Below are positions 3,471 to 7,438 of a DNA stretch of 33,638 bases, one piece after another. The notes beneath the pieces were generated by a model. It searched no databases. It was not told the DNA's origin and saw only the letters and a list, made by a program, of their open reading frames with translations. This DNA comes from an uncultured Clostridia bacterium (GTDB taxonomy: Bacteria; Bacillota; Clostridia; Oscillospirales; CAG-272): assembly GCA_946404035.1 (NCBI GenBank), contig CAMJCC010000008.1, positions 1 to 33,638 on the forward strand, in the 5' to 3' direction. Position 1 is the first letter of the stretch. Every line of letters starts with the position of its first letter. Both the position numbers and the translations under genes were made by a program.

Positions 3471-5030
3471 TCAAGAGATCAGAAGTCTGACCACGCCGTC
3501 CAGCGAATTCGGCGCGTCGGACGCGTCCTTCGCCCCGTCGGGCAGGTCGTTTTGCCGGGCGACGGTCTCGGGCGATACGCCGTACCGTTTGGCGATATCC
3601 CAGAGCGTTTCGCCCCCCTCGGGATAGACCGCGACGATCTCCCCGGGCGCGCGGGCGGGCAACTCCCCCTCCCCGCGTTCGACGCTCTCCACCACCGTCA
3701 CCTCGTTCTCTTTCGCTATCCGGACGGTGATCGCCGTTTCGACCGACGCGAGCAGGCGCGAGGGGTCCAGCCGCACCGAAACCGACAGCGGGATCGCCGA
3801 AATGTCGGCGCGCCCCTCTCCCCGACACGCGGCGGGGACCGGGAGCGTGACCGAGAACGGAAAACGGAAGTTCACGGCGGAGTAGACGGTTCCTCCGTCG
3901 GGCTCTCCGGAGGGGGAACCGACCGTCGCCGTCACCCGACACTCCCCCGTGACCGTCGCCCCGTCGTCCCCGACGGAGGCGCCGAAGACCGAAACGGCGG
4001 CGCTCTCCCCGAGGACCGTCATCGCGTCCTCGCAGTTACACTCGCTCCGCTCGGCGTCGCCCTCGAGCGCAAAGACCCCGCCCCCGCAGAAACAGACGTC
4101 GGTCACGCCGATCTTTTCGGTCCTGACCGCGGTCGGTTCCTTGATCGAAAGCATATCGACCAGCGCCGCCGCCTCGTCGGGGGCGGTCGCCTCGGCGAAG
4201 AGATCCAAGGTCAAGTCCAGCGCGATCCCGTCCCCCGCGTCGCCATCCTTTTCCGTGACGTCGAGCGCCGAGACCGTCGCCCAACCCGCCGCGCTGCCCC
4301 CGGTCAGGGGTTCGCCTTCGTACGGGATCACCTCGGAAAACGGGATCCTCCGCCGATGCGTCCTCGGCACGCCGTCCCCGCGGTCGAGTTTCAGAACGAC
4401 CTCCGCCTCGCCGCGCAGATCCACCCCGGCGGGCGTGACCGTCGCCTCCCGCACGCACGCCGTCGCCTCGGCGGCAAGCACCTTTTCCGCCCCCTCGGTC
4501 CGGATCACGTCCCCGATCCGCACGTCGCGGAGCGAGAGGACCTCTGCGACGTGCCCCTTGACCGGATGGATCAGGAGGACGGCGTCGGGGTCGGCGGAAA
4601 GGGTCGGGAGCGCGGGGGAACTCTCCCGCGCCCGGTAGCACCGGGCGGACGCCGAAAGCGGCGTTTTGATCTGGATCCGGCGCGGCCCCGTCAGCCGGCA
4701 GACCGGGACGTCCGCGACCACCGGGAAGAGGACCGGGTCGCACCCATCAGGACAGGGGAACGAGAGCAGATAATCCCCGGGGAGCGACAAAACCGACACG
4801 CCCCCGTCGGCGTTGCCGCACAGCACGGTGTGAACGACCGTCCCGGCGAACTCCGCCTTGCCGCCCGACACGTACTTCCCGCTCGGCCGCACGTTTGCCG
4901 ACGCCGAATAGATCCGTCTGATCTCGGGCTGATAGTCGGGCAGCGTGACGTCGATCACGCACTCCCCGCGCACCTGCTCGGGAGATACGTCCTTTACCCC
5001 GTGAAAACCCGTATATAGTTCCTTTTCCAT
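3471..5030 (-). CDS. DUF3794 (SPOCS domain) and LysM domain-containing protein
   Basis: 519 aa; N-terminal VKDVSPEQVRGECVIDVTLPDYQPEIRRIYSASANVRPSGKYVSGGKAEFAGTV typical of DUF3794; C-terminal LysM VYPEGGETLWDIAKRYGVSPETVARQNDLPDG. Confidence 0.85.
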   Translation of the reverse strand: MEKELYTGFHGVKDVSPEQVRGECVIDVTLPDYQPEIRRIYSASANVRPSGKYVSGGKAEFAGTVVHTVLCGNADGGVSVLSLPGDYLLSFPCPDGCDPVLFPVVADVPVCRLTGPRRIQIKTPLSASARCYRARESSPALPTLSADPDAVLLIHPVKGHVAEVLSLRDVRIGDVIRTEGAEKVLAAEATACVREATVTPAGVDLRGEAEVVLKLDRGDGVPRTHRRRIPFSEVIPYEGEPLTGGSAAGWATVSALDVTEKDGDAGDGIALDLTLDLFAEATAPDEAAALVDMLSIKEPTAVRTEKIGVTDVCFCGGGVFALEGDAERSECNCEDAMTVLGESAAVSVFGASVGDDGATVTGECRVTATVGSPSGEPDGGTVYSAVNFRFPFSVTLPVPAACRGEGRADISAIPLSVSVRLDPSRLLASVETAITVRIAKENEVTVVESVERGEGELPARAPGEIVAVYPEGGETLWDIAKRYGVSPETVARQNDLPDGAKDASDAPNSLDGVVRLLIS

Positions 5031-5038
5031 AGCGTCTC

Positions 5039-5216
5039 TCCTTCGGTATTTTGGTATATTCTATGCACCGCCCCCCCGGAGTAGAACGAAGGAATGAAGT
5101 CGCCGCGCAAGCGCGGCTAATGAAGTCGGCAGCGCATTCCGCGCTGCCTAATGAAGGCGGTGCAAGCGCCGTGAAGCGTTTGCCGCGAGCGGCAAACGTG
5201 ACGGGGCGTGGAGAAC
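5039..5216. repeat. Hairpin array A (modular hairpins with conserved TAATGAAG/GTGAAG linkers)
   Basis: Stems GCCGCG/CGCGGC (5102-5117), GGCAGCGC/GCGCTGCC (5128-5148), CGGTG/CGCCG (5158-5171), CGTTTGCCG/CGGCAAACG (5177-5198), separated by TAATGAAGTC, TAATGAAG, TGAAG; preceded by TCCTTCG...CGAAGGA; ends GGCGTGGAGAAC. Confidence 0.75.
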
Positions 5217-5230
5217 GCCGCGGCGGAACA

Positions 5231-5268
5231 AAAAAAGAAAAGACAGGGCTCTTGTGTACCCTGTCTTT
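5231..5268 (-). terminator. Terminator downstream of rplL (possibly bidirectional)
   Basis: AAAGACAGGG-N10-CCCTGTCTTT with U-tracts possible on both strands. Confidence 0.8.
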
Positions 5269-5287
5269 CTTTTTGCCTTGCGGCAAA

Positions 5288-5668
5288 TTACTTGATCTCG
5301 ACGGTAGCGCCGGCAGCCTTGAGCTCTTCGGCGATCTTGTCGGCTTCCTCTTTGGAAACGCCCTCTTTGATAGCCTTCGGAGCAGCCTCGACGAGGTCCT
5401 TCGCCTCTTTCAGGCCAAGACCGGTGATGCCGCGGACGGCCTTGATGACGTCGAGCTTCTTGTCGCCGAAGTTGGCGAGGATGACGTCGAACTCGGTCTT
5501 CTCTTCGGCAGCGGCGGCTGCGGGAGCAGCGCCGGCGGCGCCGGCAACGGCGACGGGAGCGGCGGAAACGCCGAACTCCTCTTCAAGCGCCTTCACGAGG
5601 TCGGCAAGTTCGAGAATGGTGAGACCTTTCACAAGGTCAAGGATCTGAGTGGTCTTTTCGGTAGCCAT
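5288..5668 (-). CDS. rplL: 50S ribosomal protein L7/L12
   Basis: 126 aa; Ala/Gly-rich hinge and C-terminal [70 protein letters not shown]. Confidence 0.98.
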
Positions 5669-6424: not shown

Positions 6425-6453
6425 ATTATAGCGTACCGTGCCGGATTTGTCAA
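6425..6453 (-). promoter_or_regulatory. Consensus SigA-type promoter of rplJ-rplL
   Basis: Minus strand TTGACA-17 nt-TATAAT (-35 at 6448-6453, -10 at 6425-6430). Confidence 0.9.
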
Positions 6454-6656
6454 GAGGTTTTTTATATAAAGATGAAAAATTGCTCCGGTCGAGCAAAAAG
6501 GCACGGTACGCTGTGATGTGTTGCGCCGGGCGCAACGTGATGTTGCTCTTTCGGAGCAGTGATGTTTTTACCGTCCGCAAGCGGACGGCAAAAGTGAAGT
6601 GTTGACCGCTCCTTTCGGCGCGGTCAACGTTTTGTTTTACAAAAGGCGGGGAGAAC
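6430..6656. repeat. Hairpin array B (modular hairpins with conserved GTGATGT/GTGAAGT linkers)
   Basis: 13-bp IR 6430-6442/6500-6512; stems GTTGCGC/GCGCAAC, TGCTC/GAGCA, TTTTaCCGTCCG/CGGACGGcAAAA, GTTGACCGC/GCGGTCAAC, TTTTG/CAAAA; 7-nt linkers at 6513-6519, 6537-6543, 6559-6565, 6594-6600; ends GGCGGGGAGAAC. Confidence 0.8.
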
Positions 6657-6715
6657 TGTTGAAGGCAGGGCTATAGAACCAAGGCGCGGCGGAGCGCGGA
6701 GCGAGCCGTGCCGAT

Positions 6716-6758
6716 CAAAAAACCGAGAGGGCGCACGATCACGATCGTGCGCCCTCTC
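6716..6758 (-). terminator. Terminator downstream of methyltransferase gene
   Basis: Perfect 16-bp stem GAGAGGGCGCACGATC/GATCGTGCGCCCTCTC, minus-strand TTTTTT tract. Confidence 0.85.
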
Positions 6759-6862
6759 AAACAATGCGAATTGTTTTCAGATAGTGAACCTTTTTTCAAA
6801 AAATGATGAAGTTCTTTGCCCCGCTTTCTTACAAGAAAGCGGGCGCACCCCTCGTTCTCCCC

Positions 6863-7438
6863 CTACTTCTTCTCCACGATGAAGAAATACGGCGACGTCG
6901 GCGAATTGACGATCTGAAAACACGAGCAGCAGATCAAGCGGCGGTCGAGGGTGGCAAAATACTCTTTCAGCATCTCGCCCTCCAGCCGTCCCTCCTCGTG
7001 CCCGGGATACACCGCGACCAGAAGGATCCCGTCGTTTGCGAGCAGCTCCACCGCGCCAAAAACCGCCTCCATCGTGGTTTCCCGCATCGTGGTCACCTGC
7101 TTCTTCCCGCTCCCCGGCAGATAGCCGAGGTTGAACATCACGGCTTTCGGCGCCTCGTGTACGTATTCTTTAATAAGGTGATGCGAGGCGTGGATCAGCG
7201 TATAGTTTTCGGGACATCCGACGGCTTGCAGGTGCGCGCAGGTCGATGCGACCGCCGCCTCCTGGATATCAAAGGCGTACACGCGCCCCGTCGGACCGAC
7301 GGTCTGTGACAGGAACGCGGTATCGTTCCCGTTCCCCATCGTGCAGTCCACCGCCACGTCGCCGGGGCAGAGATGCGCGAGGATAAACCGCTTCTGGAGT
7401 TCCAGAAGATCCACCATATGATTTAACCCTTTTGCCAT
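6863..7438 (-). CDS. Class I SAM-dependent methyltransferase, MnmM/YtqB-like (rRNA_methylase family)
   Basis: MVDLLELQKRFILAHLCPGDVAVDCTMGNGNDTAFLSQTVGPTGRVYAFDIQ...VMFNLGYLPGSGKK; start at 7438 or 7417; overlaps rqcH. Confidence 0.8.
   Translation of the reverse strand: MAKGLNHMVDLLELQKRFILAHLCPGDVAVDCTMGNGNDTAFLSQTVGPTGRVYAFDIQEAAVASTCAHLQAVGCPENYTLIHASHHLIKEYVHEAPKAVMFNLGYLPGSGKKQVTTMRETTMEAVFGAVELLANDGILLVAVYPGHEEGRLEGEMLKEYFATLDRRLICCSCFQIVNSPTSPYFFIVEKK

Follow-up and report, generated by a model that had tools for sequence, protein, structure and literature searches.

Arrays of variable, paired hairpins with constant linkers flank rplJ-rplL in a Clostridia genome and probably belong to a dispersed REP/REPIN-like family

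The window analyzed here, 33,638 nt in its whole length, is contig C8 of a 1.74-Mb assembly (G000; completeness 97.6%). With moderate confidence, array A, a chain of hairpins between rplL and a DUF3794 gene, is a copy of a dispersed, non-coding, REP/REPIN-like and probably non-autonomous DNA-hairpin family, in which the linker is constant and the stems turn over by paired changes. Such a family exists: its hairpins differ yet stay paired, each array mostly uses one linker, and the intergenic spaces that hold arrays are not divergent. Loop and mismatch types depend on the strand, and TAATGAAG arrays that form pairs do so head-to-head.

Results

Structure and folding of array A

All pieces of array A that an earlier note had quoted were recovered (Table 1): four hairpins joined by TAATGAAG(TC) or TGAAG linkers, three of them perfect and the third one pair off. 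No TAATGAAG was found on the plus strand of the window outside array A, and array A itself had no facing partner. Folded as DNA, the 111 nt reached -34.2 kcal/mol on the minus strand and -35.1 kcal/mol on the plus strand (z = -3.6 and -3.7, respectively), and 0 of 200 shuffles folded equally well. When the two strands were folded as RNA, the z-scores were -3.2 and -2.8. Short palindromes are abundant in GC-rich genomes, and the pattern scan of public sequences also returned low-complexity matches that were not hairpins. However, it is very improbable that the arrays are products of chance or low complexity, or ordinary terminators, given folding z-scores near -3.6, array hairpins without T-tracts and reversed-pattern controls that were zero in every genome; the controls refuted chance and low complexity. 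A coding stop-restart function of TAATGAAG (ATGAAG = Met-Lys) was also rejected, since units did not have lengths divisible by three and ATG was missing from other linkers.

Table 1. Coordinates of the arrays and neighboring features in the window
Feature	Position	Strand	Remark
DUF3794/LysM-type spore protein gene	3471..5030	-	Start on the far side of array A; name from the earlier note and the sequence
Array A, whole	5093..5203	+	Linkers read TAATGAAG on the plus strand; family loop and mismatch chemistry favors the minus strand
Array A, linker 1	5093..5101	+	AATGAAGTC
Array A, hairpin 1	5102..5117		GCCGCG-CAAG-CGCGGC; loop type g(CNNG)c
Array A, linker 2	5118..5127	+	TAATGAAGTC; same string at other loci of G000
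Array A, hairpin 2	5128..5148		GGCAGCGC-ATTCC-GCGCTGCC
Array A, linker 3	5149..5156	+	TAATGAAG
Array A, hairpin 3	5158..5171		CGGTG-CAAG-CGCCG; single mismatch, T.G or A.C
Array A, linker 4	5172..5176	+	TGAAG
Array A, hairpin 4	5177..5198		CGTTTGCCG-CGAG-CGGCAAACG
Intrinsic terminator of rplL	5238..5269	-	Between rplL and array A; conserved in G024
rplL (L7/L12)	5288..5668	-	Downstream of rplJ
Ribosomal protein L10 leader RF00557	6283..6432	-	Rfam match
rplJ promoter	6425..6453	-	Consensus TTGACA-17-TATAAT, 12/12 match; array B upstream
Array B	6513..6600	+	Linkers GTGATG/GTGAAG; G024 counterpart with changed stems
Terminator of the gene upstream of rplJ (methylase-type)	6723..6760	-	Array B between this terminator and the rplJ promoter

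Genes around the arrays

Array B, which the earlier note had placed on the other side of rplJ-rplL, was confirmed, with GTGATG linkers and the orientation of array A. Read along the minus strand, the order was methylase-type gene, terminator, array B, promoter, L10 leader, rplJ, rplL, terminator, array A and DUF3794. Each array was thus positioned between a terminator and the promoter or start of the following gene, so that, as far as the predicted terminators and promoters go, both probably lie outside the main transcripts. This placement is less sure for array A than for array B, because the promoter scan found none for DUF3794. In an Rfam search of the window the L10 leader was the sole match, with nothing at the array. 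A second dispersed composite repeat adjoined array B (window 6650-6850), with the form GGCTATAGAACC.. terminator hairpin ..GATGAAGTTCTTTGCCCCGCTTTCTT-ACAA-AGAAAGCGGG. Further copies were present at L163 16863-17203, L172 10583-11469 and in the sister species G024 (L206, L208), and the repeat yielded a spurious ORF at 6803-7309 (MKFFAPLSYKKAG..).

Other copies in the same genome

Across the whole of G000, TAATGAAG-N-TAATGAAG gave 12 matches and the reversed pattern 0; 2 of the 12 sit at C87, a repeat of C64 sequence. Arrays at C20, C22 and C64/C87 had the same linker with other palindromes (GCCCG-CAAG-CGGGC, GCCGTC-TGC-GACGGC, GCCCTC-TGC-GAGGGC, GGCGC-AGA-GCGCC, GTCCTC-TGC-GAGGAC and GGCAAC-TGC-GTTGCC), along with a 7-nt insert, GCTGCGC. 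This recurrence of the linker with different stems supported the proposal of the earlier note that the arrays form a dispersed family whose linkers are conserved and whose stems vary freely. Its statement that arrays A and B share no stem was correct within the window but did not extend beyond it, as individual stems (GTTTGCCG..CGGCAAAC, GTTGCGC..GCGCAAC and TGCTC..GAGCA) recurred elsewhere in G000 and in G024; the hairpin 4 stem GTTTGCCG was found again at C26 of G000 and at the orthologous G024 site. A forward and a reverse array faced each other between genes at C20 and again at C22. Extra intergenic arrays, found by an unbiased scan of about 430 kb of G000, had the linkers GTGAATT, GTGATGA/GTTATGA and ATATCGC, and the top enriched words flanking hairpins were GTGAAT, TAATGA and TGAATT. 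Whole-genome counts are from pattern searches; the remaining counts are from stretches covering about 430 kb of G000 and 500-600 kb of G024.

The end of C64 and the start of C87 (L011, L014) overlapped exactly within an array, and many arrays were at contig ends, including those at the public loci L049, L057, L068, L074, L090, L097, L104 and L109. Arrays break short-read assemblies and are therefore probably undercounted.

Turnover at orthologous sites in the sister species

Between G024 and G000, rplL was 98% identical, DUF3794 75% and the median orthologue 81%. G024 also had an array at each of the two orthologous places; the stems differed and the linkers were related. At the rplL-DUF3794 site the G024 linkers were GCGAAGT and GTGAAGT; the two flanks had identities of 91% and 89%, and only 78 of 135 columns of the array could be aligned (79% identity there). 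The comparison of this region had been suggested in the earlier note, and its outcome favored the family proposed there: what it yielded was not an unrelated conserved leader with the linker pattern missing from the rest of the genome. At the site of array B, the leader flank was 92% identical and the array 78%. The linkers at a third syntenic site were AATTCAC in G000 and GCGATAT in G024. All three compared syntenic array sites were occupied in both species, with no empty site among them, indicating that the arrays are not a simple insertion polymorphism; array content changes faster than its flanks, which stay 89-92% identical. Other genomes of the genus could not serve as orthologous sites, because no DUF3794 neighbor was detected at their rplL.

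About two dozen arrays were found in the sampled stretches of G024, mostly with one linker per array (ATATCG[CA], GTGAAGT, ATGATG, TATGTAAT or GTGAATT). The ATATCG pattern had 77 matches in this genome and its control 0. One convergent intergenic region (L197 1145-1748) held facing TATGTAAT and ATTACATA arrays together with a CGATAT array, so that multiple linker families stood side by side. L202 17998-18408 contained three tandem copies of a unit, about 150 bp long, that bears an array; the copies differ slightly in stems and loops, which makes this locus well suited to following how arrays evolve step by step.

Pairing and strand asymmetry of the hairpins

Perfect hairpins made up 72 of the 147 distinct inserts in public TAATGAAG units, compared with a mean of 24 (maximum 37) when 3' halves were swapped between equal-length inserts; these public counts are not independent events, because many of the loci hold related hairpins. 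The 62 distinct inserts of the ATATCG units in G024 had 51 different 5' arms and 44 perfect stems, and 94.7% of their stem pairs were Watson-Crick. In the arm-shuffle test, 92% were paired compared with 62% after shuffling (maximum 71%). The paired excess in both sets shows that pairing is preserved while both arms change.

On the CTTCATTA strand, 51 loops were GNA and 0 TNC, and 56 mismatches were G.A and 4 T.C. The ATATCG family had 20 G.A and 0 T.C mismatches, with a small excess of GNA loops (7 GNA, 3 TNC). The G.A mismatches inspected were tandem, e.g., ACGAGC-GNA-GCGAGT. GNA-loop hairpins in the public loci were flanked by CTTCA in 45 cases versus 1 on the other strand; the flanks were TTCAC/CTTCA in G000 (0 on the other strand) and CATCA in G024 (again few or none). 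G.T was slightly higher than A.C (15:10, and 6:1 in the ATATCG family), and a GC-skew comparison for the replication strand gave 12 vs 6. GCGAAGC is reportedly the classic extraordinarily stable DNA mini-hairpin (Hirao and colleagues), and c(GNA)g, c(GNNA)g and g(CNNG)c are said by Bevilacqua's group to be stable DNA loops. A class of 7-10-nt DNA mini-hairpins has been confirmed (PMC10527192). However, GNA loops and tandem G.A are stable in RNA too, and G.T slightly exceeded A.C, so these features would be compatible with either a DNA or an RNA form.

Organization and distribution

Paired TAATGAAG arrays stood in the head-to-head order TAATGAAG>..<CTTCATTA in 52 of the 54 pairs in public loci and in both pairs of G000 (54/56 in total). 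Arrays were present in 7 of 44 convergent and 11 of 170 co-directional intergenic regions but in no divergent one (0/93 divergent vs 18/214 other; p ~0.0015, simple binomial). Some began 3-12 nt from a stop codon. The favored strand was sense in 9 of the 10 co-directional cases of G000 and G024. A strict sense orientation to genes was rejected, as it fits these two genomes but fails in the public loci, where sense and antisense were 14:12.

These features bear on an RNA element, i.e., arrays transcribed as chains of RNA hairpins that act as 3'UTR stabilizers or as sponges for a linker-binding protein. Avoidance of divergent regions, starts close to stop codons and the sense excess in G000 and G024 would fit such an element, and the GNA/GNRA loops and tandem G.A suit RNA as well. 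However, the head-to-head pairs place each array antisense to one gene, and the sense excess is missing from the public loci. Neither array A nor array B falls within a predicted transcription unit, wobble pairing is scarce, and the array has no Rfam match. On balance, we consider an RNA element unlikely, and DNA hairpins remain the preferred reading.

The strict TAATGAAGWC pattern had matches in 5 of the 59 genomes from the family and in 8 of the 394 from the order; the latter 8 belong to six families (control 0). Among GTDB contigs, its matches were mainly in rumen and gut Clostridia, with chance low-complexity matches in other phyla. Carriage by phages was rejected, as none of the 12 pattern matches on viral contigs had a hairpin insert. 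Rumen genomes contained a composite block (terminator, array, reverse array, terminator) in several copies per genome with different neighboring genes. One rumen array (L053 221-469) was a higher-order repeat of three hairpins with stepwise linker and hairpin variants. The literature searched contained no account of these linker strings or of arrays built in this way, and the string matches listed looked like primers or chance.

Discussion

The arrays resemble REP, REPIN and BIME repeats in being short intergenic palindromes with strand-specific single-strand features, a constant motif beside the stem, compensatory changes, head-to-head pairs and a preference for convergent and co-directional spaces. 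REPINs are head-to-head pairs (PMC3116915), and inverted pairs predominated here; REPs have the location seen for these arrays (PMC3733652), which were extragenic and mainly convergent or co-directional. In Marinomonas REPs, GTAG is separated by two bases from a perfect stem of 5 bp (PMC8266576). These likenesses, together with a constant motif 5' of the hairpins, would be expected of classical REPs/REPINs moved by a Y1 transposase (RAYT) that has been lost or comes from outside, the GAAG 2 nt before the stem serving as the GTAG guide. By contrast, the linkers here are TAATGAAGWC, GTGATG, GTGAATT, TATGTAAT and ATATCG, that is, GAAG or motifs unrelated to the guide (ATATCG, TATGTAAT), with no GTAG or close relative 5' of the palindrome. 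REP families conserve the stem; here the stems are free, as seen from the 51 arms among the ATATCG inserts and the 147 TAATGAAG inserts, and up to about seven different hairpins follow one another in head-to-tail arrays. The loop chemistry also favors the opposite strand. Moreover, Y1_Tnp (PF01797) had 0 matches in G000, G024, G096, G027 and G148, 5 of the 11 array-bearing genomes, while positive controls were detected. RAYT is therefore not a general helper, and Y1 mobilization, an improbable explanation overall, was rejected because the enzyme is absent from these five genomes. Because three defining features fail (RAYT, GTAG and a conserved stem), we regard the arrays as a variant of the REP kind and not as a member of it.

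CGTC-tagged REPs, including Neisseria dRS3, have a constant CGTC (or TGTC/CCTC) tag, an 8-9 bp stem with A-T first pairs and a CCA-like tail (PMC3733652). They are likewise palindromes for which no transposase is known, and most form head-to-head dimers; the reverse complement of the linker here can read CGTCTTCATTA. However, the tag here is not constant like CGTC, because its third base varies (GWC). The stems are 2-13 bp and usually G-C closed, no CCA tail was noted, and tandem arrays are common here but rare there. The arrays thus do not fall within the CGTC-tagged class.

A linker that is constant within each array and reappears in different families of the order could also point to a BIME-like protein-binding array, in which the linkers are sequence-specific DNA-binding sites and the hairpins mere spacers. 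This would leave unexplained why the spacers are near-perfect palindromes, why their loops are strand-specific and why one genome has several unrelated linkers, and we give it slightly less credence even than mobilization by RAYT.

In the preferred DNA-hairpin family, the CTTCATTA strand would form the hairpins while it is single-stranded during replication or repair. Arrays may grow by duplication of linker-plus-hairpin units, and template switching within a hairpin may alter its stem, rewriting both arms together; template switching creates and maintains perfect stems (PMC8794818). Linker uniformity could be kept by a sequence-specific factor or by the duplication process itself. The element would be non-autonomous, its spread helped in trans by something other than present-day RAYT; no mobilizing enzyme was identified for the arrays. 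Any benefit to the host, such as insulation of neighboring genes or binding of nucleoid proteins, would be secondary or absent.

Constant linkers with rapidly changing yet perfectly paired hairpins are the reverse of known bacterial palindromic repeats. Those repeats are recognized by conserved stems, and repeat finders would therefore mostly miss stem-variable arrays. A bolder reading, less likely than not, is that gut and rumen Clostridia hold bacterial repeats of a new kind, in which the short linker is both heritable and recognized, the hairpins are constantly being rewritten, several linker families with their own recognition factors act on folded single-stranded DNA, and stems drift while their arms match. 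Should the pattern prove general, intergenic repeats of this class will have been missed in these organisms, in part because the arrays break assemblies. Paired changes beside a constant linker would provide a natural system for testing how hairpins are written by template switching, and the arrays may also be a route to an enzyme that reads linker and structure rather than stem sequence.

Mitochondrial repetitive hairpin elements (sponge RHEs and fungal double-hairpin elements) are GC-rich hairpins in intergenic DNA. To our knowledge, none of them forms constant-linker arrays. Multiple invasions are reported for the sponge RHEs (PMC2800124). Mitochondrial elements share GC-rich intergenic hairpins with the arrays but are organellar, and common ancestry is not suggested. 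The regular alternation of constant and variable parts also recalls CRISPR. No functional relation is implied, and the form is inverted: in the arrays a linker of 6-10 nt stays constant and the palindrome varies.
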